Shown here piece by piece: positions 27,074 through 48,458 of a stretch of DNA of 64,000 bases (its first letter is position 1; the number at the start of each line of letters is the position of its first letter). The position numbers were made by a program, and so were the translations under genes. The notes beneath the pieces are model-generated. The model was not told the DNA's origin, ran no database searches, and saw nothing but the letters and a program-made list of their open reading frames with translations. Where the stretch lies: assembly GCF_000743535.1 (NCBI RefSeq), contig NZ_AVCJ01000007.1:1-64000 (forward strand), given 5' to 3'. This stretch comes from Arenimonas donghaensis DSM 18148 = HO3-R19 (GTDB lineage: Bacteria; Pseudomonadota; Gammaproteobacteria; Xanthomonadales; Xanthomonadaceae).

Positions 27074-30000
27074 ATGAAGCTTGCGCCGCACGTGCCCGTG
27101 CTGCTCGCCCTGTGCCTGTCGGCCGGGGTGGCCTCGGCCCAGGTGTCCCTCACCGGACCCGCCTATACCCAGGATTTCGACAGCCTCGCCAATAGCGGCA
27201 GCGGCCACACCGCCCTTCCGGCGGGCTGGCTGCTCAGCGAATCAGGCACCAACGCCAACGGTCAGTACCAGGCCGGCAACGGCAGCGGCAATTCCGGCGA
27301 CAGCTACAGTTTCGGCGCGACCGGAAGCAGCGAACGCGCCCTGGGCGGCCTGCTCAGCGGCTCGCTGAACCCGACCTTCGGCGCCTGCTTCACCAACAAC
27401 GTCGGCAATACCGTCACCGCCCTGGACATCGCCTACACCGGCGAGCAGTGGCGCAGCGGCACCGCCGGTCGCATCGACACCATCAACTTCCAGTACAGCC
27501 TCGACGCGACCGGCCTGGCCGACGGCAGCTGGATCGACGTGGATGCGCTGGACTTCAACTCGCCCAACACCGTGGGCACCGGCGCCAAGGACGGCAACGA
27601 CGCCGCCAACCGCGCCGCGGTCGCCAGCCAGATCGCCGGACTGGCCATCGCCAATGGCAGCGGTTTCTGCATCCGTTGGACCGACTTCAACGCCTCCGGT
27701 TCCGACGACGGCCTGGCGGTGGACGGTTTTTCGCTGACGCCGGTGTTCCAGCCGCCGGGCGCCGACCTGTCGGTGGGCGTGTCGGTGGACAACAATCCGG
27801 CCACGGCCGGCGGCACCATCCAGGTCCGCACGCGGATCGAGAACCTCTCGGCCATCGACAGCGCGCCCTACACACTCCGGCAGGACAACCTCGGCGAACT
27901 TACTTACGCCAGCGGGGAGATCGGATCCATCGTCGGCGACTATCGCGCCGGCTGCAGCATCTCGACACCCAGTAACGTCCTGAGCTGCAGCGCGGCCACC
28001 GGGGCCGGGCCCAACTCGGGCTACACCGTCACGCTCGGCTTCAACATCGCCGCCGGCGCGGTCGGCCCCCTTGTCTTCGACGCCGGCTTCACCGCGTCCG
28101 AGGGTGACACCGTGCCCGGCAACGACCGTGATGTCCTGGTCGTGCCGCTGGCGGGCCAGTCTTCGGACATCGCCGTCAGCCTGGCCGACAGCGTCGACCC
28201 GGCCGTGCCCGGCAGCAGCCTCACCTACACCGCCACGGTCACCAACAACGGTCCGGGCCGCACCTATGGCATGAGCCTGAGCCTGCCGCTGCCGGCCAAT
28301 ACGACCTACGTCAGCTCCACCTTCGACCCCGCCCTGTTCGACGCCTGCGACGTGCAGGCCGGCGTGCTCGAGTGCACCGGCGCCCAGTTCGTCAGCAGCG
28401 GCGCCAGCGGCAACGTGACCCTGGAAGTGCTGGTGGATGCCGGCTTCCTGGGCAACCTGTCCACGACGGCGACCGCCGGTTCGCTGGTGCCCGACCTGGT
28501 GCCGGCCAACAACAGCGACACCGAAACCACCCTGGTCGAAATTCCGCGCGTCGCGATCCACACCGTCCAGGGCGCGGGCACCCAGTCGGCGCTGCTCGGA
28601 AGCCTGGTCGAAGTCGAGGGCATCGTCACCGCCCAGCGCTTCAACAATGGCTTCTTCCTGCAGACCGTGCCGGGCCAGGAAGACGGCAATCCGGCGACGT
28701 CCGAAGGCATCCTGGTGTTCACCGGTTCCGCGCCGCCGGCGTCGGCCGCCGTGGGCAACCGCGTGCTGGTCACGGGTACGGTCGAGGAGTACCGCTCGTC
28801 GTCCAACCCGCACCAGGGTTTCGTCACCGAACTGATCAACCCGACGATTTCGGTCGTCAGCAGCGGCAATGCGCTGCCGGCCGCGGTGGAGATCACCGCG
28901 GCGATGATGGATCCCTCGTTGCCGGTCGAGACGCTTGAATACCTCGAAGGCATGCGCGTCTCCGTCGGCCGCCTGGTGGCCACCGCGCCGACCGAAGGCA
29001 GCATCGACGAAAACGACGCCCTGGCCTTCCCGAACGGCACCTTCTGGGGCGTGGTCGAAGGCATCGAGCGCCCGTTCCGCGAGCAAGGCGTCGGCGTACA
29101 GGACCAGTCCCCGCCGCTGCCCGCCAATACCCCGCGTTTCGACACCAACCCCGAGCGCCTGCGCGTGCAGAGCCGCGGCCAGATCGGCGCCAGCCCGCTG
29201 GTGCTCGACAGCGGCGCGATCGTGACCGGCCTGGTCGGCGTGCTCGATTACGGCTTTGGCACCTACATCCTGATGCCGGACCCGGACGCACCGGTGAATG
29301 TGCAGGGTGGCTCCGGCCCCCGGCCGGTGGCGGAAGCGGACGCGTCCGAATTCACCATCGCCGGCGCCAACATGCTGCGCTTCTACGATGACGTCGACGA
29401 CGCCGGCGGCGACGTGCCGCTGACCCCGGTGGCGTTCGAACGCCGGCTGGCCAAGGCGTCGCTGGCCATCTGCGACTACCTGCGCACGCCCGACATCATC
29501 GGCGTGGTGGAAATGGAAAACCTGCACGCCCTGCAGATGCTGGCCGACCGCGTCAACGCGACCTGCGCCGACGGCCCGAACTACGTGGCCTACCTGCAGG
29601 AAGGCAACGACGTCGGCAAGATCAACATCGGTTTCCTGGTGGACACCACCGAAGTCGGCCCGGGCATCCCCCGCGTGCAGGTGCTGTCGGTCACCCAGTA
29701 CGGCAAGAACGCCCTGATCACCAACCCCAACGCCAGCACCTCGACCATGAACGACCGGCCGCCGCTGGTGCTGCGCGCCGTGGTCAACGCGAGCAACGGC
29801 GCCAGTGCCCCGGTGACGGTGATCGGCAACCACCTGCTGTCGCTGATCGACATCAACGACAACGACCCCGGCTCCAACGGCTACGCCAGCAACGGCCAGC
29901 GCCGCCGCGTGAAGCGGGCCGAACAGGCGGTGTTCCTGGCCAGCCTGGTCGAGCAGTTCCAGCAGGCCGACCCGGACGACCGCATCGTGCTGCTGGGCGA

Positions 30001-31153
30001 CTTCAACGCCTTCGAGTTCAACGATGGCTACGTCGACGTGATGGGCATCATCACCGGCCGCGAGGCCGCCAACGACGCCGTGCTGGAGCATCGCGACAGC
30101 CCGGTCACGGTGCCGCTGACCAACATGACCACGGTCACCGACGCCGCCGACCGCTATTCGTACTCCTTCGAAGGCAATGCCCAGGTGCTCGACCACATCG
30201 TGGTCAACCAGGCCCTGCTGGACACGGCGCCGGTGCGCACCGACCATGCCCGCATCAACGCCGATTTCGCGGTGGACAGCTTCGGCGATGAAACCATGGC
30301 CGTGCGCATGTCCGACCACGACCCGGTGGTGCTGTACATCGGCGACGTCGCCTTCGTCAGCACCGACCTGGCGGTCAGCGCCTCCGGTCCGGCCAGCGCC
30401 ATCGCCGGCGAGCCCATCCCGATGCAGGTCACGGTGAACAACCCGGGCCCGGCGTCGGCCACCGACGTCCTGGTCAGCCTGGCCTTCGACGCCGAGCTGC
30501 CCTCGCTGGGCGTGACCGCCCCGGCCGGCTTCGCCTGCGGCCCGGTCACGGTCGCCGCCGGCCAGACCACCGTCGACTGCGCCATCGCCGAAATGGCCCC
30601 GGGCAGCGCCGGCTTCGACCTGCTGGTCTCGACCGACCTGGCCACGGTGGTCCCGGCCGGCGGCCTGAGCCTGACGGCCCGGGTCGAAACCACCCGCACC
30701 GACGGCAACCCGGCCAACAACCTGGCCGTCGCCACCGTGCATCTGGTGCCGCCTTCGGCCAACCTGGCCCTGTACGTGGCGGAACTGCCCGACCCCAACC
30801 GTCCGGCGCGTGAAGGCATCGTCGGGCTGCTGGTCCGCAACAACGGTCCCAACGCCGCGCCCGGCACCTGGCTGGAGTTCACCGTGGGCACCAACGTCCA
30901 GGACGTCATCCCGCAGCCTGCGGCCGGCTGGACCTGCCACCTGGCCTCGACCAGTCGCAGCGCCCAGACCTTCCGCTGTGAATACGCCGGCGGCTACGGC
31001 GATGGCCAGGCGGACGTGGTCCGGTTCCGGGTGCAGGCACTGAGGTCCACCACGACCGCCTTCAGCGCCCGGACCGGCAGCGCCGCGAACGACCCGGTGT
31101 CGCGCAACAACAGCGTCAGCGGCAGCTTCCGGATCGGCATCGGCTCCCGGTAA
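27074..31153 (+). CDS. Giant secreted endonuclease/exonuclease/phosphatase-family nuclease with DUF11 repeats
   Basis: 1359 residues with a signal peptide (about 1-22, GVASAQ). Layout: an N-terminal beta domain (about 23-226), DUF11-like repeats (about 229-355 and 365-490), an OB-like nuclease accessory domain (about 493-600, [14 protein letters not shown]), then the EEP nuclease core (about 755-1095) with VVEMENL, the catalytic LLGDFNAFE near 970 and [12 protein letters not shown] near 1080. Two further DUF11-like modules end the protein (about 1097-1225 and 1229-1359). It resembles ExeM/NucH-type extracellular nucleases but ends without a GlyGly-CTERM or LPXTG anchor, so it is probably released, perhaps through the type II system encoded here. 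Confidence 0.9.
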
Positions 31154-39348: not shown

Positions 39349-41778
39349 TCAGTCGCGGGGAAAACGCGCCTCGATCTCGACGGCCGGGGCCGGCCGCCCG
39401 AAATGGTAGCCCTGCAGCTCGTCACAGCCCATTTCAAGCAGGAAATCGGCCTGTTCCTGGTTTTCGACGCCCTCGGCCGCCACCACCATCTTCAACTCGT
39501 GCCCGACCGCCACGATGGTGCGGGCGATGGCGGCGTCGGCGGCATCGCCGGGCAGGTCCTTGACGAAACTGCGGTCGATCTTGAGTTTGTCCAGCGAGAA
39601 CTGCTTGAGGTAGGCCAGGCTGGAATAGCCGGTGCCGAAGTCGTCCAGCGAAAGCGATACGCCCAGTGCCTTGATCTCGGCCAGCCGCCCTTTCACGCGG
39701 TCGACGTTCTCCATCAGCGAGCTTTCGGTGAGTTCGATCTCGAGCATGCCCCGGGGCACCTGGTGGCGCTCGATGGCCTCGCGCACGCGGTCGACGATGT
39801 CCGGCCGCTGCAGCTGGTGCGCGGAGAAGTTGACGGCCACGGTGAACCCTTCACGGCCCTGGTCGTGCCAGGCACGAAGCTGGCGGCAGGCCTCGTTCAA
39901 CACCCACAGACCCAGTTCGGGCATCAAACCCAGGGATTCGGCGATGGGGATGAAGCGTCCCGGAGGAACCGAGCCCAGGTCGGGGCTGTTCCAGCGCAGC
40001 AGGGCCTCGAAGCCGGTGATGCGACGACTGCCGGCAGCAAGCTGTGGCTGGTAGTGCAGCTGCAGTTCGTCGCGCGAGACCGCCTCGCGCAGGCGTGCGC
40101 CCAGCACCAGGCGATCCTCCAGCTCCTGCATCTGCAGGGTGGAGAACTCGCAGACGGTGTCGCGACCCTCGCGCTTGGCCCGGCTCATCGCGGCTTCGGC
40201 CCGGCGCAGCAGGTCGGCGCCCGACTCGCCGTGGTCGGGCGAACGGGCGATGCCGATGCTGGCCGTCAGGTACAGGCTCCAGCCGTCGCCTTCCAAGGGC
40301 CTGGCCACGGCCTGCCGGAGCGCTTCCGCCACTTCGAGCACACGCTCCCGGGCTTGGCCGGCCACCACGGCGACGAACTCGTCACCGGCGAAGCGGGACA
40401 GGTAGCCCGGCCCCCCCAGCACGTCGCTCAGACGCGTCGCGACCACCCGCAGGGCCTCGTCGCCGATGATGTGTCCCATCGATTCGTTGATGGCGTGGAA
40501 GTGGTCGAGGTCGATGAACAACAGGGACACCATGGCGCCCTCTCTTTCAAGCAACCCGGCGATGGCGGCTTCCAGGATCGGGTAGAGCGGCAGCGAGGTC
40601 ACGGCATCGTGGTTGGCGGCGTAGGCGAGTTCGGCTTCGACCTGCCGGCGCTCGGTCAGGTCGTTGAGGATGCCCACGAAGTGCGTGATCGTGCCCTGCT
40701 CGTCGCGCACCGGCGACGTGAACAGATGGTTCCAGAACAACTCCCCGTCCTTGCGGAAGTTGCGCAGGATGACGTTCGATTCGCGGCCTTCCGCCAGCGA
40801 CCGGCGCAGGATCTTGAGCTCTGGCTGCCTGGTTTCCGCGCCCTGCAGGAAGCGGCAGTTGCGGCCGACCACCTCTTGGGCATCGTAGCCGGTCAGGGAT
40901 TCGAAGGCGCTGTTGACGTAGATGATCGGCAGGTCCGCGGCCTGGGCATCGGCAATGATGATGCCGTTCATGCTCGACTCGACCGCCCGCTGCAGCAGCT
41001 GCATCCGCTCCTGGGTGGAGCGTTGTTCGGTGATGTCGTGCGCGATCACCATGCGGCAGGCCTTGCCGTCGAGCTCGAGGGCATGGCCGGTGATATTGAC
41101 CCACACCAGGCTCCCGTCCTTGCGCCGGTGCCGCCAGATACCCGCGCCGCCGGACTGCTCGTCCCGTTCGTCCAGATAGGCGCGCAGGCGCTCCGCCTCG
41201 TCCGGGTCACGGATGTCGAAAATGGTCATCCCGAGCAACTCGTCCCGGCTGTAGCCATAACTGGCCACCATCGCATCGTTTGCCGCGACGAACCGGTGAC
41301 TGCTGATTTCGTAGACCCAGGTCGGGAAGGGATTGAGCTCGAACAACTGCCGGTAGCGGCGCTTGCCGTCTTCGATCTGCGCGACCTGGCGCGCACGTTC
41401 GGCGGCATAACGCAGGGACCGCGCCAGTTTCTCGGCGTCGATGTTTCCCTTGACCAGATAGTCCGAGGCACCGGCGGCCAGGGCCTCGCGGTCGACGTCG
41501 GGATTGCCCTGGCCGGTGAGCATGATCACCGGGCGATGCGCGCTGCCCTCGGCCACGGCCAGGCGCACCAGGTCCATGCCGTTGTCCGGGCCCAGGTGGT
41601 AGTCCACCAGGAAAACGTCGTGCAGGTTCTCCCGCAGGGCCTTGGCCCCTTCGGCCAGGGTGGCCACCCAGTCGAGCTCGAATCGACCCTGGGGAAAGTC
41701 CGCCAACAGGTCCCGCAGGATCAGGAAGTCCTCCTCGTCGTCGTCGACGACCAGCACGCGGAGCACGGCGTCATTCAA
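39349..41778 (-). CDS. REC-PAS-LOV-GGDEF-EAL cyclic-di-GMP signalling protein
   Basis: 809 residues: a receiver domain (about 1-125, with VFLVDYHLG), a PAS domain (about 145-260), a LOV-type PAS (about 270-380), GGDEF (about 385-560) and EAL (about 565-800). The LOV motif GRNCRFLQG holds the photoactive Cys308, and NFRKDG and FWN supply flavin contacts; the usual output Gln is Leu371 (FVGIL). GGDEF reads AGDEF (464-468) and its front end is degenerate. EAL is complete (EALLRW 591-596, ELTES, DDFGTGYSS, AEGVEN), so c-di-GMP hydrolysis is likelier than synthesis. The TTG start at 41778 overlaps the receiver gene stop and has GGAGG nine bases upstream. Confidence 0.9.
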   Translation of the reverse strand: MNDAVLRVLVVDDDEEDFLILRDLLADFPQGRFELDWVATLAEGAKALRENLHDVFLVDYHLGPDNGMDLVRLAVAEGSAHRPVIMLTGQGNPDVDREALAAGASDYLVKGNIDAEKLARSLRYAAERARQVAQIEDGKRRYRQLFELNPFPTWVYEISSHRFVAANDAMVASYGYSRDELLGMTIFDIRDPDEAERLRAYLDERDEQSGGAGIWRHRRKDGSLVWVNITGHALELDGKACRMVIAHDITEQRSTQERMQLLQRAVESSMNGIIIADAQAADLPIIYVNSAFESLTGYDAQEVVGRNCRFLQGAETRQPELKILRRSLAEGRESNVILRNFRKDGELFWNHLFTSPVRDEQGTITHFVGILNDLTERRQVEAELAYAANHDAVTSLPLYPILEAAIAGLLEREGAMVSLLFIDLDHFHAINESMGHIIGDEALRVVATRLSDVLGGPGYLSRFAGDEFVAVVAGQARERVLEVAEALRQAVARPLEGDGWSLYLTASIGIARSPDHGESGADLLRRAEAAMSRAKREGRDTVCEFSTLQMQELEDRLVLGARLREAVSRDELQLHYQPQLAAGSRRITGFEALLRWNSPDLGSVPPGRFIPIAESLGLMPELGLWVLNEACRQLRAWHDQGREGFTVAVNFSAHQLQRPDIVDRVREAIERHQVPRGMLEIELTESSLMENVDRVKGRLAEIKALGVSLSLDDFGTGYSSLAYLKQFSLDKLKIDRSFVKDLPGDAADAAIARTIVAVGHELKMVVAAEGVENQEQADFLLEMGCDELQGYHFGRPAPAVEIEARFPRD

Positions 41779-42245
41779 TGCCGGTTTCCCTCCGCCTCGG
41801 GCGGCAGGTCGACCACCTGCAGCCAATAGGTGCCCAGGGTCTGCACGACCTCCAGCAGGGCCGTGAACGTCACCGGCTTGGTGATGAAGGAATTGACCCC
41901 GTCCCGGTAGCTCCGCACCACGTCCTCTTCGGCCTTGGACGTCGTGAGGATCACCACCGGGATGCTGCACAGGCGCGGGTCGGCCTTTATCTCGCGAAGC
42001 ACCTCGCGGCCATCCTTGCGCGGCATGTTCAGGTCCAGCAGCACCAGGCCGGGCATCGGATAGGCTTCTTCGTCGGCGAACCCACCCCGGCGATGCAGGT
42101 AGTCGAGCAGCTCCTCGCCGTCGTTGACGAAACGCAGGGGATTGCCCACCCGGCATTCGGTGAACGCCTCCTGGGTCATCAGGCGGTCGTCAGGGTCGTC
42201 ATCTGCCATCAGTATGGTGATGGGTTGGCGCGGCAAGTTCATCAC
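41775..42245 (-). CDS. Stand-alone receiver protein (Rcp1/CheY-like)
   Basis: 156 residues, a single receiver domain: acidic pocket ADDDPDD (about 14-20), phospho-acceptor Asp in VLLDLNMP (about 67-74), Thr in VVILTTS and Lys in FITKPV. The insert-bearing form with HRRGG before the acceptor strand is typical of Rcp1-type partners of phytochrome-like or PAS-rich kinases. It lies 32 bases after the giant kinase gene and overlaps the LOV-GGDEF-EAL gene, so it likely relays phosphate between them. Confidence 0.9.
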   Translation of the reverse strand: MMNLPRQPITILMADDDPDDRLMTQEAFTECRVGNPLRFVNDGEELLDYLHRRGGFADEEAYPMPGLVLLDLNMPRKDGREVLREIKADPRLCSIPVVILTTSKAEEDVVRSYRDGVNSFITKPVTFTALLEVVQTLGTYWLQVVDLPPEAEGNRH

Positions 42246-42277
42246 TCGACGGGGTCCTGAGGCTGACGTGCCTGACT

Positions 42278-45200
42278 TTACGGTTCGGACAGCGGATTGG
42301 CCAGCGTTCCCCTATCCGCCGGCTGCCGTTCGGGCAGCCGGATGACGAAGCTGGCGCCTTCCCCGGGACGGCCTTCGGCCTGGATGGCGCCACGATGGCG
42401 TTCCACGATCCGGCGCACGATCGCCAGGCCAATGCCGGTACCGTCGTATTCCTGTCGGCCGTGCAGGCGCTGGAACGGGGCGAACACCTTTTCGGCGTGG
42501 CGCGGCTCGAAGCCGATGCCGTTGTCGATGAAACGCAGGATCCAGCCCGGACCGTCCATGCCCGCCTCCTTTTCGGCCTCCACGCGGATCACCGGGGGCC
42601 GGTCCGGGGACCGGAACTTGAGTGCATTGGAGATGAGGTTCTGGAAAAGCTGGCGCATCTGGGTGGCATCGGCCTCGATAACCGGCAGCGCACCGGCCTC
42701 GACGCGACCGCCGCTGGCTTCCAGGCTGGTCTCGAGGTCGTCGACGACCCCTGCCAGCACCGCGTCCAGCTTTACTCGCGTGAACGGCTTGCTGCGTGCC
42801 GCGACCCGCGAATAGGCCAGCAGGTCGTTGATCAGGACCTGCATGCGGCTTGCCGCCTTGCAGGTGCGGTCCAGGTAGTCCCGGGCTTCCGCCGTCAACG
42901 CGTCCGCATGGCGTTCCTGCAACCGGTCCGCAAAGGCCCGGATCTTTCGAAGGGGTTCCTGCAGGTCGTGCGATGCAATGAAGGCGAAATCCTGGAGTTC
43001 GCGGTTGCGGGCGTTGAGGTCGGCCAGGGTCTGGCGCAGGGCGGCCTCGGACTGCAGCCGCTGCGTGATGTCGCGACCGACGGCGTAGACGAGGCCATCT
43101 TGGGCGGGCGCCGACATCCACTCCATCCAGCGCACCTCGCCGGCCTTGCTCACGTAACGGTTCACGAAGCTGGTCTGCACCTTGCGTCCCTGCCCAAGCT
43201 CGTTTGAACGCTCGCGCGTGGACGGGGCATCGTCGGGATGGATGAAATCGAGGATCGGCCTGGCCAGCAGCTCCTCGCGGCTGTAGCCGGTGATGTCGGC
43301 CAGCATCTGGTTGACCTGCACCCAGCGACCGCTCGCCGGGTCGTAGACGACAAAAACCTCGAGCGACATTTCGAAGAAACGGTCGCGAACCTGCAGCCGT
43401 GCCAGCAAGCGGGCGCGTTCGATGGCGATGACCGCCATCTGCGAGAACTGCAGGGCCACCTGTTCGTCGTCCTCGCTGAACTCCCCGCGGTATTTGTCGC
43501 TCAGCTGCAGGATGCCCAGCGTCTTGCCGTCGCTGCCAACCATCGGCACCGCCAGCCAACCGCGCATCGGCGGGTGCCGCGCGGATTCGGCACCGAAGTT
43601 GCGCCAGCCCGGGTGCGCCTCGAGCTCCGCCTGGGTCATGCGCATTGGCTGCTGGCGTTCACCGACCCTGACGTAGATGCCACTTCCATCGATGGGTACG
43701 TCATAGTCGCGCCATTGCGCATACTTGTCCGAGAGCGACACGGCGTTGAGCAGCTGCGAGCGCCCGTCGCCGGACTCGACACTCACCACGGCCTGGTGCG
43801 CACCGATGATCTCGCGGGCCCGGTCCACCAATTGCTGGTACAGCGTCGCCTCGTCCAGGTCCCGGTTCACCGAAATCGACGCCTCGCTGAGCCGGTGCAA
43901 CTGGCTGCTCAAGGCCTCGGCGCCGTCGAGCGCCTCCGACAGGTCCCGCTGGTGCTTGCGCAGGAGGCTGATGTCCTGGGCGATGCCGAACACGCCGGTC
44001 ACCCGGTCACCAACGACGATGGGCAGGTTGGTCACCCGCAGTTCGACCCGCTGGCCGTCGCTGGCGAGCCCGGTCATCTCGTAGGTGCGCGCTTCCCCGT
44101 GGGTAGCCGCGGTGAAATGCGCGCGCACGACCCCGCGCTCGGACTCCACCACCAGGGAATCGAAGCGCTTGCCCAGAACGTCCTCCGGCCGCAGCCGGGC
44201 CAGGCGCTGGAACTGTTCGTTGACCTCGGTGAAGCGACCCTCCAGGTCGAGTGAATAAACGGCGTCGGGGTGCTCGTCGAACAGCGACCGGAACCGCTGC
44301 TGGCTGTTGCTGATCGACTGGAAGGCGGCATCGTGCTCGATCGCCACGGCGCAAAGCGCGGCCAGGCCGTCGATCAGTTTCAGTTCGTCTTCGTTTGGTT
44401 CGCGAACTTCGGAATAATAGGTAGCGAACGTCGCGACGACGCGTCCATCGGAAGCCTTGACGGGCGTCGACCAGCAGGCCTTGAGTCCGTGCGCCTGCAC
44501 CAGGCGCCGGTAGCCTTCCCAGAGCGGGTCGTTGTCGATGTCGGCGACGACCACCCGCTCACCGCGGTAAGCGGCCGTGCCACAGGAACCGGCCCTGGGC
44601 CCGATGGCCAGCCCGTGGATGGCGGCGTTGTACTCGGCCGGCAAGTTGGGCGCCGCGCCGACCAGCACGTGCTCGCCGCTCTCGTCGAGCAGGAGGATCG
44701 AGCTGACCGCGCCGGGGATCTGGCGTTCCGCCAGGCGCACGATCGCCATCAGGCCCTCCCCCAGCGGGCGCCGGGCGGCGATACCGGCAAGGATGAGGCG
44801 CTGGCCGTCTTCGAGTTCCTGGGCGCGTTTGCGCTCCGTGATGTCCTGGACACTGCCGGCCAGCTTCCAGGGCCGGCCCTGCTCATCCTTGAACAGCCGC
44901 GCCCGCTCGTGCACGTAACCGACGCCCCCGCCGGGCAGCACGATGCGGTGTTCGATATCCAGCTCACCCTCGCCCGCCAGCGCCCTGGCCTGTGCCGCTT
45001 CGACACCCGCGAGGTCGTCGGGGTGCACACGGGCACTGAAGGCCTCGTAGTTGCCGGCGAAGTCGCCGGCCTTTACCTGGAAGATCCGGTAGACCTCGTC
45101 CGACCAGCGCAATACGTTGTTCGGGATATCCAGCTCCCAGGCTCCCATGCGGGCGATCAACTGGGCGCGTTCGAGGCTGGCCCGTGCTTCGGCCAGTGCC

Positions 45201-48200
45201 GCCGACTGGCGACTGGCTTCGGTGACGTCGCGGGCGACGGCGAACATCATGCGCTCGCGCGCCGACCACACCGCCGACCATTGCATGGACACCACCCGTC
45301 CATCCTTGCGCACCACGCGATTGCGGAAGTCCACCGTCGGCTGCCCGGCCAGGACGGCCGCGCCTTCGCGCAGGGTGTGGGCGCGGTCATCGGCGTGCGC
45401 CAGGTCGTAATACGCACGGCCAACCAGTTCAGCCGGCGTGTATCCCCAGACCGCCTCCGAGGCACCCGACACCTGGGTGAAGCGACCATTGGCGTCGAGC
45501 ACGCAGATCACGTCCAGCGAGTTCTCCAGCACCAGCCGGTTCATCACCAGCGACTGTTCGAGCCGTCGCGACAGCTCGCGCAGTGCGTTCTGGGCGTGCT
45601 GGCTGTCGGTGGTGTCCTGGATCGCGCCCGAGGCCGCCACCGCCTCGCCGGCGGCATTGCGCACCAGGGTGCCCAGTTCACGCACGTGGCGGGTTTCCCC
45701 GTCCGGCCGCAGGATGCGGTACTCGACTTCCAGGTCGGACTCCTCGCCGGCCAGCAGCCGGCGCCTGGCCTGCTGCAGCCGCTCGCGGTCCTCGAAATGC
45801 ACGCGTTTCGCCAGCTCGGCGAAACTCCGGATTTCATGCGTCGTGCCCAGGCCGAAGATCGACTGGGCTTCCGGGGAAAGCCGCAGTTCGCCGGAGTCGA
45901 GCAACAGTTCCCAGCTTCCGAGCCGGGCCATGCGCTGGGCGCGCTCGGACGCCGCGCGCGCCTGCCTCGCGGTGTCTTCGGCATGCTTGCGCGCGGAGAT
46001 GTCCTGGAAGTACACCGCCAGGCCCTGGGGATGCGGATAACAGCGGGCGAAGAACCAGCCGTCGAGCGGCGGGAAATACACCTCGAACTCCCCCGCGCGC
46101 CGCTGGCTGACCGCGGCACGGAATTCGCGCTCGATGACCGTCCCCTGCGCTTCCGGGAACGCCTCCCAGACGCTGCGCCCGACGAGCTGGTCACGGCTGC
46201 GCGCCATGAGCTGTTCAGTGCGGGCATTGACGAAAACGAAGCGCCAGTCGCTGTCGAGCGTGTAGAACGCGTCGCTGATGCTCTCGAACACCGAGGACAG
46301 TTCCTGTTCGGCCTCCTGCAGGGCCGCCCGGGCGATCTCCGCGGCCTCCACCTGCCGGCTGAGCTCCTGGCCCCGGCGCTCGGCAACCGCCGCGCGCTCC
46401 CGGGCCAGGCTGGCCAGGCGCAGTGCCAGTGCCACCAGGCCACCGGTGATCAGGCCGGTGAAAAGCAGGATGTTCGCCAGGGGCGTGGCTTCGGATCCGG
46501 CCGACCAGACCTTCAGGTCAACGTCCGCGCCGGATACCGGTACCGGGCGCTGAAGCGGACTGCCTCCCGGCGGCGGCGTCCCACGGGAATAAAGCAGCAT
46601 GTCGCCGTAGCTCAGTTCCACGGCGTTTTCGACGGCGACATCGTCCAGCGCACGTGCGAACAGGTTTTCGTAGCTCACTACGCCGACCAGGAACCCCTGG
46701 AGCTGGTTGTCCCGGCGGACGGGTGCCACCAGAAGCTCGCCAACGCTGCCATTGAACAGGACCAGCGGCGGTGACTGGACTAGTGCACCCTCACGCCGCA
46801 CGCGTTCAAGAAGCTGGCGACGCAGTGGGTCGGCATCAAGCTTTCGCCCGACGACATTGACCCTGTCGCTGCTGCTCTCAAACTGCCGTCTGACGACGGC
46901 ATCCGGGCCTACCCATACCAGGTTGACCAAAGACTGGAATTCGTTGAGATGGATTTGCGCATCCAGGTTGAAGGCCGCCAGCCGCGCCGGCTCGTCGGAC
47001 GCTTGCGACATCCGGAATGCCGTACGGCGCAGCGCATCCGCGCGCGCCGCGACGCCACCGAGGATCGCCTTCTCCACCAGCTCCGACTGTCGCAGTCGTA
47101 GGGCGTCGCGGCTGGCCTTGCTGTCCCGGTCGATCTGGAACCAGACCAGGATGGAAACGGCGACGGCCGCCGCAGCCACTGCCAGAGGCATCCAGCCGGC
47201 ACGTGCCTGCAGCGCCCTGCGATGCTCGGTGCCGGCGGCAACCAGCGCGACCCCGGTCATCAGCAGGGCCAACGAGGTCAGCAGGGCCATCGGCGTGTAG
47301 CCACTCCAACCGCGCAGCGCGGGAATCTGCAGCACGTAGCCCGTGAGCACGATCACCGCGATCATCGCAATGACGAACCCGCAGGCCCAGGTCGCCGACC
47401 AGCGCGCGGTGCTGGCCGTTGTGCCAGACGGAGCCAGGGCAATGCCGAGGCAGGCCAGCAGGTAGGCCGTCGCGGCATTGGGGGCCATGCGGCCGGGCTC
47501 CGCACCCTCGGCGACGATCACGTGCGTCAGCAGCCACTCGCCGGTGCCCAGGGCTAGCCCGCCGTACTCCTCGGCCAGGCTGGCCAGGCACAGCAGCACG
47601 ACCGGAGCCAGGGGCACCAGCGCCATGTTGCGATGGCCCGAAGCCAGCAGCCGAAGGGAGCCGGCGATGAGCAGCGCGATCAGCGCGGAGTTGAATTGCA
47701 TCGGCACGTGGTCCGTGCCGCCCTGCACGATGTACGGAATTTCCAGCGTCCACCCCGCCATCACCAGCAGCCCGATCCCCGCCAGCGACGCGGCGCAGAA
47801 CCGAAGCACGCGCAGCGGGCGCTGCACGAGGTCGCGCGTCATCAGCCACGCCCCCAGGCCCAGGTAGGCCAGCGAGGGGCCGATGCCCAGCGCCACGCTT
47901 CCGGGCGCCGCATCGAAGACCTCGACCAGGCACAGCCCGCAGAACGCCACGAGGAAGCCGCCGAGGGATCGCGCCAGCAATCCCACGACCACCGTTCCGG
48001 TACCGAGGCTCGCGCCCAGTCCGATCGCAGCGGCCAGCGCGGCCAGCCACGGCGACGGACTGCGCAGCCCGTCCGCCACCTGCGCCGGCCAGGCCAGCCA
48101 GAGCAGGGCGAGGCAGGCGAAGGCCACTGCCCAGGCCAGGCGCATCGCGGGCCGGCGGTCGGCCCGCAGTAACGCCCCGGCAGCCACCAGCAGCGGTGCC

Positions 48201-48364
48201 AGCAAGGACAATGCGCCGGGCCAGCCCGAAGGCAGGGTGTCTGTCTGGGCCAGCCACTCGACCAGCACGACCGGCAGCGGCAGCCAGGCCAACCAGGGCA
48301 GGACACGCGCTCCCCGCGCCCGCGCGGCTTCGATGACCTGGTTCCCGTTGCGATCACTCGCCAT
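42278..48364 (-). CDS. Giant membrane multi-PAS/GAF sensor histidine kinase
   Basis: 2028 residues. Order: about twelve membrane segments (20-400), a CHASE-like periplasmic sensor (about 405-625), one more membrane span (about 630-655), then PAS (690-805), PAS (810-920), PAS (941-1055), PAS (1070-1185), GAF (1200-1340, GSCGTAAYRGERVVV), PAS (1356-1475), GAF (1495-1655), PAS (1660-1775), HisKA with His1799 in IASHDLQEPLRKI, and HATPase (about 1900-2015, NLISNALKF, DNGIGF, GTGIGLAIV). All catalytic boxes are intact. It has no own receiver; the next gene supplies one. The start codon is only 18 bases past a tRNA-Thr gene and lacks a good ribosome binding site. Confidence 0.92.
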   Translation of the reverse strand: MASDRNGNQVIEAARARGARVLPWLAWLPLPVVLVEWLAQTDTLPSGWPGALSLLAPLLVAAGALLRADRRPAMRLAWAVAFACLALLWLAWPAQVADGLRSPSPWLAALAAAIGLGASLGTGTVVVGLLARSLGGFLVAFCGLCLVEVFDAAPGSVALGIGPSLAYLGLGAWLMTRDLVQRPLRVLRFCAASLAGIGLLVMAGWTLEIPYIVQGGTDHVPMQFNSALIALLIAGSLRLLASGHRNMALVPLAPVVLLCLASLAEEYGGLALGTGEWLLTHVIVAEGAEPGRMAPNAATAYLLACLGIALAPSGTTASTARWSATWACGFVIAMIAVIVLTGYVLQIPALRGWSGYTPMALLTSLALLMTGVALVAAGTEHRRALQARAGWMPLAVAAAAVAVSILVWFQIDRDSKASRDALRLRQSELVEKAILGGVAARADALRRTAFRMSQASDEPARLAAFNLDAQIHLNEFQSLVNLVWVGPDAVVRRQFESSSDRVNVVGRKLDADPLRRQLLERVRREGALVQSPPLVLFNGSVGELLVAPVRRDNQLQGFLVGVVSYENLFARALDDVAVENAVELSYGDMLLYSRGTPPPGGSPLQRPVPVSGADVDLKVWSAGSEATPLANILLFTGLITGGLVALALRLASLARERAAVAERRGQELSRQVEAAEIARAALQEAEQELSSVFESISDAFYTLDSDWRFVFVNARTEQLMARSRDQLVGRSVWEAFPEAQGTVIEREFRAAVSQRRAGEFEVYFPPLDGWFFARCYPHPQGLAVYFQDISARKHAEDTARQARAASERAQRMARLGSWELLLDSGELRLSPEAQSIFGLGTTHEIRSFAELAKRVHFEDRERLQQARRRLLAGEESDLEVEYRILRPDGETRHVRELGTLVRNAAGEAVAASGAIQDTTDSQHAQNALRELSRRLEQSLVMNRLVLENSLDVICVLDANGRFTQVSGASEAVWGYTPAELVGRAYYDLAHADDRAHTLREGAAVLAGQPTVDFRNRVVRKDGRVVSMQWSAVWSARERMMFAVARDVTEASRQSAALAEARASLERAQLIARMGAWELDIPNNVLRWSDEVYRIFQVKAGDFAGNYEAFSARVHPDDLAGVEAAQARALAGEGELDIEHRIVLPGGGVGYVHERARLFKDEQGRPWKLAGSVQDITERKRAQELEDGQRLILAGIAARRPLGEGLMAIVRLAERQIPGAVSSILLLDESGEHVLVGAAPNLPAEYNAAIHGLAIGPRAGSCGTAAYRGERVVVADIDNDPLWEGYRRLVQAHGLKACWSTPVKASDGRVVATFATYYSEVREPNEDELKLIDGLAALCAVAIEHDAAFQSISNSQQRFRSLFDEHPDAVYSLDLEGRFTEVNEQFQRLARLRPEDVLGKRFDSLVVESERGVVRAHFTAATHGEARTYEMTGLASDGQRVELRVTNLPIVVGDRVTGVFGIAQDISLLRKHQRDLSEALDGAEALSSQLHRLSEASISVNRDLDEATLYQQLVDRAREIIGAHQAVVSVESGDGRSQLLNAVSLSDKYAQWRDYDVPIDGSGIYVRVGERQQPMRMTQAELEAHPGWRNFGAESARHPPMRGWLAVPMVGSDGKTLGILQLSDKYRGEFSEDDEQVALQFSQMAVIAIERARLLARLQVRDRFFEMSLEVFVVYDPASGRWVQVNQMLADITGYSREELLARPILDFIHPDDAPSTRERSNELGQGRKVQTSFVNRYVSKAGEVRWMEWMSAPAQDGLVYAVGRDITQRLQSEAALRQTLADLNARNRELQDFAFIASHDLQEPLRKIRAFADRLQERHADALTAEARDYLDRTCKAASRMQVLINDLLAYSRVAARSKPFTRVKLDAVLAGVVDDLETSLEASGGRVEAGALPVIEADATQMRQLFQNLISNALKFRSPDRPPVIRVEAEKEAGMDGPGWILRFIDNGIGFEPRHAEKVFAPFQRLHGRQEYDGTGIGLAIVRRIVERHRGAIQAEGRPGEGASFVIRLPERQPADRGTLANPLSEP

Positions 48365-48382: not shown

Positions 48383-48458
48383 TGGTGCCGGCTCCCGGAA
48401 TCGAACCGGGGACCTACCGCTTACAAGGCGGTTGCTCTGCCTGCTGAGCTAAGCCGGC
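48383..48458 (-). tRNA. tRNA-Thr (anticodon TGT)
   Basis: A 76-nt tRNA with encoded CCA. The acceptor stem GCCGGCT pairs with AGCCGGC, the D-arm contains AGCTCAGCAGGCAGAGC, the anticodon arm is CCGCC-TTGTAAG-CGG with TGT in the loop, and the T-arm is CCGGG-TTCGATT-CCCGG-like. It lies 32 bases after the SPOR-like gene and 18 bases before the giant kinase gene on the same strand. Confidence 0.97.

Follow-up and report, generated by a model that had tools for sequence, protein, structure and literature searches.

A kinase, an Rcp-type receiver and a REC-PAS-LOV-GGDEF-EAL protein as a candidate c-di-GMP operon in Arenimonas donghaensis

Three adjacent genes in the window of Arenimonas donghaensis (the whole stretch of 64,000 nucleotides that was analysed) fairly probably form a self-contained two-component operon for c-di-GMP. 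It would combine a kinase with an extracellular input, a blue-light (LOV) modulator and, probably, a net phosphodiesterase. The sequences themselves show the layout, the phospho-acceptor, EAL and LOV-cysteine motifs and the co-inheritance of the genes; they also show that Gln/Leu changes recurred and that the LOV domain was lost once. What is novel is that one orthologous operon provides an allelic series from nature, with Gln/Leu swaps and a single LOV loss.

Organization and inheritance of the locus

The genes are three intact ORFs on the minus strand, in the order kinase, lone receiver and third protein (positions 48364 to 39349; Table 1). The kinase and the receiver are 32 bases apart, and the stop codon of the receiver (TGA, 41775) and the start codon of the third protein (TTG, 41778) overlap. 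The original prediction, made from the letters of this DNA, had the coordinates, strand, gap and overlap right. Pfam also agrees with its kinase of six PAS and two GAF domains without an own receiver, followed by a lone receiver. The predicted REC-PAS-LOV-GGDEF-EAL protein is recovered by Pfam (Response_reg, two PAS, GGDEF and EAL) together with LOV matches in the PDB.

Table 1. Features of the locus, with the evidence for each
Feature	Position	Strand	Evidence or remark
tRNA-Thr(TGT), left border of the trio block	48383..48458	-	Ends 18 bases ahead of the kinase start
Sensor histidine kinase, 2028 aa, without receiver domain	42278..48364	-	ORF (ATG) and Pfam
Membrane helices, about 12, kinase residues 1-412	47129..48364	-	Hydropathy and AF2; mostly absent in 3 of 11 congeners
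Cache/CHASE-like periplasmic ligand-binding domain (predicted), kinase residues 413-627	46484..47128	-	AF2, Foldseek, Pfam CHASE
Six PAS and two GAF, kinase residues about 690-1776 (outer bounds rounded)	43037..46297	-	Pfam
HisKA and HATPase_c, kinase residues 1791-2013	42326..42994	-	Pfam
Rcp-type lone receiver, 156 aa, GTG 42245 or ATG 42242	41775..42245	-	ORF, Pfam Response_reg, PDB relatives
REC-PAS-LOV-GGDEF-EAL protein, 809 aa, TTG start	39349..41778	-	ORF and Pfam
REC; acidic D12-14, acceptor D59 in VDYHLG, T88, K110	41422..41757	-	Pfam and motifs
First PAS	41014..41361	-	Pfam; bounds 140-255 set by us for dN/dS
LOV domain	40645..40995	-	PDB LOV proteins, best E 3.5e-37
Codon of LOV active-site Cys308	40855..40857	-	Cys in 12/12 LOV-bearing genus orthologues, window included
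Codon CTC, Leu371 at the active-site Gln position	40666..40668	-	Alignment to LOV chains
GGDEF domain: AGDEF, without I-site	40159..40617	-	Pfam and motifs
EAL domain, catalytic motifs intact	39391..40095	-	Pfam and motifs

The trio alone fills its block, and about 35 bases lead from the third gene to the next one. A promoter and terminator scan gives 0 promoter-like sites (0.7 expected) and 5 terminator-like sites versus 4.8 expected. Among the best 25 NCBIfam matches of each protein, solely general domain models (sensory_box, GGDEF) score above their cut-off. No close plasmid copy was found, with no match of at least 60% identity among the best 5000 plasmid records. Short diverged repeats belong to at least 60 families in the repeat scan.

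Within the genus, 13 of 27 genomes, the own genome included, carry an orthologue of the lone receiver (69-100% identity), and the same 13 carry one of the third gene. In these 27 genomes the receiver orthologue is never present without that of the third gene. Synteny in relatives was a check set beforehand, and it was found: kinase, receiver and third gene are adjacent and in the same order in 12/12 congener loci, and they are gained and lost together. The site of the block is constant, beside tRNA-Thr. It is kept free of the block in 7 of the 10 trio-less congeners examined ("trio-less" being defined by receiver and third-gene searches, with the kinase not queried), and one block-free congener nests among the trio-bearers. 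Three genomes (G008, G009 and G012) carry receiver paralogues of 41-46% identity elsewhere. Another, G049, has a relative of the third gene in a different order, ahead of a kinase, and the stretch examined contains no lone receiver.

All three ORFs are intact and have conserved counterparts in congeners, and median NG86 dN/dS in the third proteins is 0.21-0.46 by domain (55 non-independent pairs from 11 full-length proteins), so the trio is more than a chance arrangement; co-occurrence and constant adjacency in the genus rule out chance neighbours. The constant order, with two receivers after a receiver-less kinase, and the joint gain and loss support the view that the genes act as one functional unit.

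The layout of kinase, Rcp-type receiver and REC-fronted effector is recurrent, and the design is not new. For this comparison we took the best-scoring loci, not random ones (29 at the class level and 30 at the order level), counted short contigs as misses and used no control receiver family. At the class level, 19 of the 29 Rcp-type receiver loci are directly followed by a second receiver-fronted gene, which carries a GGDEF domain in 14 cases and a kinase in 3. The other 10 (four of them holding fewer than 2,800 bases) have no second REC after the receiver, and a kinase lies upstream in 3. At the order level this second REC is missing in 9 of 30 loci, with a kinase upstream in 8 of the 9. Outside the genus, trios with a LOV domain occur in no fewer than four genomes (G058, G715, G750 and G943) and in a Rhodanobacter MAG. 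The named relatives used were this MAG (L046) and a Desulfobacterales MAG (L047). The original prediction regarded the combination as unrecognised. This overstated its novelty, considering the recurrent layout, the LOV trios outside the genus and a published LOV-GGDEF-EAL protein without the glutamine, described in the consulted part of PMC9098866. The literature matches listed include no description of the trio; one paper with the REC-PAS-GGDEF-EAL architecture is among them.

The kinase and the receivers

Pfam assigns to the kinase six PAS stretches, two GAF stretches, HisKA and HATPase_c, and no receiver, HPt or phytochrome domain. The H-box, HDLQEP, stands at residue 1799, and the N, D and G boxes are present, as in HisKA kinases. 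A phosphorelay, as originally proposed, is too strong a reading. Without a receiver or HPt domain by Pfam, we rejected a hybrid phosphorelay, and a branched two-component pathway, with one kinase and two competing receivers, would fit better.

About twelve N-terminal membrane spans had been predicted, which is a fair estimate. By hydropathy, 11 separate peaks precede residue 412 and one more lies at 632-650, and the AF2 model has 13 helices (at least 14 residues each) starting before residue 412. We compared this region in the 11 congener kinases with a readable 5' end. Ahead of the position aligning with residues 383-391, three of them have at most 46 (G004), 50 (G023) and 11 (G003) residues, so most of the spans are missing there. 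Congeners may therefore differ in the input that their kinase receives.

An additional sensor, absent from the original prediction, is the Cache/CHASE-like periplasmic domain. Residues 413-627 present fold matches by Foldseek to the sensor domains of KinD, PctA and CqsR, in an AF2 model with a mean pLDDT of 73 and a pTM of 0.57. The Pfam CHASE model scores 24.7 bits, just under its cut-off of 25.0. A redox input to the kinase is unsupported, and we dropped it: Pfam gives no pointer to redox sensing, and this periplasmic fold is the sole recognisable extra sensor.

The lone receiver is of the Rcp type, according to its PDB relatives and its DD, D, T and K phosphorylation set. RphyB, Rcp1, RcpB and RcpA are within its eight best PDB matches, and Rcp-type chains rank above the PleD chains (ranks 12-15). 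The phosphorylation residues of the receivers are conserved across congeners.

The third protein and its LOV domain

The EAL domain presents EALLRW, ELTES, LDDFGTGYSS, AEGVE and LQGYHFGRP, the motif set of a phosphodiesterase. The GGDEF motif is AGDEF, and no RxxD precedes it. Among the best 25 NCBIfam matches, the best equivalog is DibA, with 504.7 versus a cut-off of 980. The output is probably that of a net phosphodiesterase. The AGDEF domain may be an active cyclase, and the effect on c-di-GMP could go either way.

The named LOV matches among the best 60 PDB chains include phototropins, aureochromes and blue-light photoreceptors or kinases. The motif GRNCRFLQ holds the active-site cysteine, C308. 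The active-site glutamine is missing: Leu371 stands where all five aligned LOV chains carry Gln. This replacement is an observation that the original prediction did not contain. Nine LOV positions are, we assume, flavin contacts; eight are invariant in the 12/12 LOV-bearing orthologues and 371 alone varies. In the excerpt consulted, PMC9098866 describes the glutamine as generally dispensable for LOV signalling, and so we class the third protein as a Gln-less LOV, not a canonical one.

Gln/Leu changes at 371 occurred three or four times on the genus tree. The tree tool gives 4, which by our own reasoning could be 3 because the fork joining L033, L034 and L035 is weakly supported (56/31). Two Leu orthologues (G011 and G022) share just two LOV differences from a Gln orthologue (G018), Leu304Ile and Gln371Leu. 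In the G013 orthologue the LOV domain is entirely absent, so the unit does not require light.

The original prediction had proposed a light/redox input. A flavin (LOV) input on the c-di-GMP enzyme is likely, judging by these motifs; a redox input to the kinase is not supported.

Proposed mechanism and alternatives

In the mechanism that we favour, the kinase would read an extracellular small molecule through the periplasmic Cache/CHASE-like domain. Its PAS/GAF array would take further cues, and autophosphorylation would occur on the HDLQEP histidine. The phosphate would then pass to two targets, the Rcp-type lone receiver and the third protein's REC. DivK is known to feed back on its kinase. 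Our guess for the lone receiver is one of three roles: a phosphate sink, a DivK-like feedback on the kinase or a diffusible second output. Phosphorylation of the REC would set the GGDEF-EAL activity, most likely towards net c-di-GMP hydrolysis. The LOV domain would bind FMN, form a cysteine adduct in blue light and bias this output. With Leu for Gln, it may be a modulator dispensable to the unit.

The LOV domain is unlikely to have ceased to be a photoreceptor, surviving as a flavin redox or structural domain in a purely chemical two-component c-di-GMP switch. Such a decay would agree with the Gln/Leu changes, seen on three or four lineages, with the loss in G013 and with the dN/dS of the LOV (0.44), which resembles that of the plain PAS (0.46) and exceeds those of REC and EAL. 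Nevertheless, Cys308 and seven other presumed flavin contacts are invariant in Leu and Gln types. Likewise, dN/dS is alike in Leu/Leu pairs (0.42, 6 pairs) and Gln/Gln pairs (0.44, 21 pairs), so no relaxation is seen in the Leu types. Leu variants of model LOVs also keep signalling, although often weaker (PMC9098866, in the part consulted). We tentatively propose, as one possibility, that evolution adjusts how strongly light acts on an unchanging core of kinase, two receivers and c-di-GMP enzyme, up to deleting this input, instead of switching the photochemistry off.

Alternatively, phosphorylation might turn on the AGDEF domain and raise c-di-GMP, which we find somewhat doubtful. AGDEF is kept in 11/12 congeners (TGDEF in one; the G003 protein was read from a second piece), and 5m3c, which ranks third among the PDB relatives, bears the name diguanylate cyclase. 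However, the EAL motifs checked are all intact, and the ten best PDB relatives include DosP, a phosphodiesterase, and the phosphodiesterase domain of MucR. A precedent for a cyclase is CfcR of Pseudomonas putida, a similarly built REC-PAS-GGDEF-EAL protein and a net cyclase whose activity needs the REC aspartate D65 and H496 of the kinase CfcA (PMC4951495, relevant excerpt). In a third reading, quite improbable, the signal would leave mainly through the lone receiver, acting like CheY on pili or flagella, with the third protein adjusting it. It would suit the Rcp-type loci without a second REC (10/29 and 9/30 above), but not the genus, where the receiver always comes with the third gene. We retain net hydrolysis through the third protein as the most likely main output.

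Comparison with known systems

Cph1/Rcp1 is the type of a kinase-receiver pair. The window shares with it a lone receiver of the Rcp family; unlike Cph1, the kinase has no phytochrome domain, and a third gene is added. PleD is a REC-REC-GGDEF protein that has neither EAL nor LOV, and the kinases that serve it are encoded elsewhere. The alphaproteobacterial DivJ/PleC-DivK-PleD system also has a lone receiver and a c-di-GMP regulator in one operon, and the kinases DivJ/PleC serve both DivK and PleD (PMC7003649, as excerpted). The window receiver is Rcp-type by sequence and not closest to DivK, with no chain of that name among the best 60 of its 84 PDB matches.

The passages available from PMC4951495 describe CfcA/CfcD/CfcR, which like the window comprises a multi-domain kinase, a second REC protein and a REC-PAS-GGDEF-EAL regulator. 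The CfcD REC is the nearest in its genome to that of CfcR. CfcA is described as a hybrid kinase, which sets the receiver-less window kinase apart, and these passages mention no LOV, unlike the third protein here. The Cfc kinase and regulator have distant locus numbers in KT2440 (PP_3761, Rup4959) and are reported together in P. resinovorans. By analogy, the window operon would work like CfcA/CfcR, but it is not the CfcA/CfcR pathway.

Three other systems share parts of the design. A Mesorhizobium loti protein has a Gln-less LOV fused to GGDEF-EAL, and its LOV-GGDEF fragment is a cyclase repressed by blue light. It carries Met for Gln versus Leu here, and the part of PMC9098866 consulted describes no REC, second PAS or kinase partner. 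SL2 of Synechococcus elongatus is a LOV-GGDEF-EAL protein with c-di-GMP hydrolysis driven by blue light. It differs in its canonical LOV and, within the excerpt of PMC8846402, no receiver or kinase is described. RavS/RavA/RavR of Xanthomonas campestris likewise joins a kinase to a GGDEF-EAL response regulator, and RavR acts as a phosphate sink. In contrast, RavR has GGDEF and EAL N-terminal and then REC, the system has two kinases where the window has two receivers, and no LOV is described in the available text of PMC6707612.

The trio would thus illustrate a light input laid over a chemosensory two-component c-di-GMP switch. With its natural Gln/Leu orthologues, the role of the LOV glutamine could be tested on full-length native proteins, and no mutants would have to be engineered. 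The recurrent cassette of kinase, Rcp receiver and REC effector gives a genomic handle on the role of the second, output-less receiver. The host genome also encodes a BLUF protein, so the host probably has a further means of sensing blue light.

Gene organization and domains of the kinase

The open reading frames put all three genes on the minus strand, the kinase first, then the lone receiver and then the output protein; the original prediction had described the same order on one strand. It had also described a kinase with about twelve N-terminal spans, six PAS and two GAF domains, and no receiver of its own. Pfam returns the same six PAS and two GAF stretches, together with HisKA and HATPase_c, and no receiver domain in the kinase. 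The helix count, about twelve before the PAS array, agrees. The third protein begins with a TTG that overlaps the stop codon of the lone receiver.

Coordinates of the features discussed
Feature	Location	Strand	Length
Kinase	48364..42278	-	2028 aa
Lone Rcp-type receiver	42245..41775	-	156 aa
Third (output) protein	41778..39349	-	809 aa
LOV domain	third protein, residues 262-378	-	
Further kinase domain	kinase, residues 413-627	-	
tRNA-Thr(TGT)	48383..48458	-	
Nuclease-like protein	27074..31153	+	1359 aa
BLUF protein, host genome	G000:C1:360564-360854 (L224)		

Between the membrane helices and the PAS array lies a further kinase domain, absent from that prediction. Its Pfam score for CHASE is 24.7 bits against a cut-off of 25.0. 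In an AlphaFold model that draws on eight orthologues (mean pLDDT 73.1, pTM 0.57), its fold matches the periplasmic sensor domains of the PDB proteins KinD, PctA and CqsR (target TM-scores 0.54-0.73). The domain is best read as a Cache/CHASE-like extracellular ligand sensor. Three of the 11 congeners with a readable 5' end (G004, G023 and G003; loci L036, L038 and L041) have kinases missing most of the N-terminal spans. They retain the Cache-like domain and everything C-terminal of it.

The lone receiver retains its phosphorylation residues. The eight PDB hits that rank highest for it are 5te9, RphyB, two further receivers, Rcp1 (two entries), RcpB and RcpA.

Co-inheritance and genomic site

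The third gene has an orthologue in 13 of the 27 genus genomes, its own included; a fourteenth match, in G025, is a different protein (42%). The genus presumably lies close to Rhodanobacteraceae or Xanthomonadaceae. Exactly the same 13 genomes hold an orthologue of the lone receiver (69-100% identity), and G008, G009 and G012 have only receiver paralogues (41-46%). At all 12 congener loci fetched, the three genes stand in the window order, which bears out the synteny that had been proposed as a check. The G022 contig stops inside the kinase. In G003, a genome rated 86% complete, a frameshift splits the third gene, possibly an assembly error.

The tRNA-Thr just upstream of the kinase is found there in 9 of the 12 congeners as well. 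In G011 and G022 the contig stops short of this position. For G018 (L035 / L217), the 4.7 kb upstream of the kinase hold no tRNA, and its tRNA-Thr is on another contig; an insertion may separate tRNA and kinase.

Ten of the 14 trio-less genomes were compared (all except G001, G007, G016 and G024). Seven have a block-free site where a relative of the 218-aa flank gene, the tRNA and an arginase adjoin (G019, G008, G012, G005, G006, G014 and G015), the flank-gene relative being only 27-28% in G006, G014 and G015. G025, G017 and G009 have the tRNA and left flank, with no arginase match in the stretch fetched. A tree built from three flank genes (20 rows) joins G019 to G002 and G010, both of which bear the trio (100/100), so loss of the whole block in G019 is the simplest account. 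This tree, in which several other forks are weak, requires at least three gains or losses of the block.

Distribution of the layout

At the order level, 82 of 200 genomes had a match at E 1e-25. We compared 30 loci with lone-receiver matches, including the window and two congeners. Of these, 29 have a kinase core upstream in the same orientation, and 21 a second REC within 520 bases downstream, in another open frame. That frame also holds a kinase core in 14 loci and GGDEF in 5, so in the order the third gene more often carries a kinase output than a GGDEF one. The 14 loci with REC and kinase core (L137, L140-L144, L146-L151, L153 and L155) may be two-kinase cascades.

At the class level, 65 of 369 genomes had a match at E 1e-36. 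Among the best 29 loci besides the window, 18 have the kinase upstream in the same orientation. A second REC is present in 19, sharing its frame with GGDEF in 14 (EAL too in 10) and with a kinase core in 3. At three loci (G544, G329 and G300), the kinase runs divergently on the opposite strand.

The REC-PAS-LOV front part was matched at E 1e-70 in 3 of 397 other genomes of the phylum sample (G715, G750 and G943; L195-L197), each of which carries the complete trio. Their third proteins, REC-PAS-LOV-GGDEF-EAL, have a LOV of the Gln type; inspection by eye adds a second REC C-terminal of EAL. The trio also occurs in G058, of another family, and in a Rhodanobacter MAG. There are counter-examples: in G049 a relative of the third gene stands before a kinase, in another order, and in G025 one lacks REC and has no lone receiver nearby. 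A Desulfobacterales MAG (L047:2400-3520) has a related kinase and Rcp receiver and, after them, a REC protein ending in a short tail rich in cysteine (CASC...CPEC); judged by sequence, this tail is a different output on the same kinase/receiver cassette. From these layouts, the core is kinase, Rcp-type receiver and REC-effector, with LOV as an optional insert.

The LOV domain and its Gln/Leu series

The LOV domain matches solved LOV domains (best E 3.5e-37). Its cysteine motif GRNCRFLQ is intact, and leucine replaces the active-site glutamine (FVGILND). LOV is present in 12 of the 13 genus orthologues, all 12 with the cysteine. G013 has lost it entirely, keeping REC-PAS-GGDEF-EAL and the other trio genes. 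Leucine occurs in the window (CTC), G011 and G022 (CTG) and G004 (CTC); the remaining eight have glutamine (CAG), and so do the two outgroup sequences (from G058 and the Rhodanobacter MAG). The protein tree needs four changes, or three if G011 and G022 are sisters, a grouping that the sequences neither show nor exclude. Compared with G018, the LOV differences common to both these Leu proteins are only Leu304Ile and Gln371Leu. The other two Leu-Gln comparisons involve more differences (24 and 16). Across the whole protein, besides 371, only columns 2, 193 and 475 split the two types, none in LOV. The median LOV dN/dS is 0.42 for six Leu/Leu pairs vs 0.44 for 21 Gln/Gln pairs. This series is the part of the trio most worth following.

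PMC9098866 counts about 350 natural LOV receptors that lack the Gln, most of them with Leu or Ile in its place; it also describes a LOV-GGDEF fragment from Mesorhizobium loti that blue light represses. A LOV-GGDEF-EAL protein lacking the Gln is thus of a known kind. Among bacterial LOV proteins, about 18% carry GGDEF, alone or with EAL (PMC4844311). Outside the trio, a LOV-GGDEF-EAL protein of G025 (L015/L044) likewise carries Leu in place of the Gln (FVGVLND). The host genome has one other match to the trio's LOV domain at E <= 1e-10 (35% identity, without the cysteine motif). It also encodes a BLUF protein above the family cut-off, likely a second blue-light receptor.

Output and proposed pathway

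All EAL motifs checked are intact in the third protein and largely kept in congeners (n=11 with EAL read). The GGDEF motif is AGDEF in the window and 11 of 12 congeners, and TGDEF in G011; none of these proteins compared has an RxxD I-site. In the PDB, its ten top-ranking relatives are chains of motility regulators (4rnh, 4rnf, 4rni), 5m3c, which carries the name diguanylate cyclase, DosP chains and a MucR phosphodiesterase domain. We would expect net c-di-GMP hydrolysis. A cyclase output stays a live rival by analogy, because CfcR of Pseudomonas putida, similarly built, is a cyclase (PMC4951495). In the same paper CfcR depends both on the His of its kinase and on the Asp of its own REC, a precedent for the pathway proposed here.

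We read the trio as a branched two-component pathway, inferring each functional step. An extracellular ligand and cytoplasmic cues would set kinase activity, and the kinase would phosphorylate both receivers. REC and LOV of the third protein would both bias the GGDEF-EAL output, and the lone receiver would buffer or feed back. In PMC7003649, divK and pleD share an operon and the same kinases act on both, a precedent for a lone receiver and a c-di-GMP regulator sharing kinases. For light bias there is SL2, with c-di-GMP hydrolysis in blue light (PMC8846402).

The original prediction did not recognise the exact combination as described. Among the open-licence papers listed by the literature searches, we saw no description of the trio. 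Its pieces and layout are known or recurrent. Elsewhere in the window, the matches of the plus-strand nuclease-like protein to the ExeM/NucH family of extracellular nucleases score under the curated cut-off.
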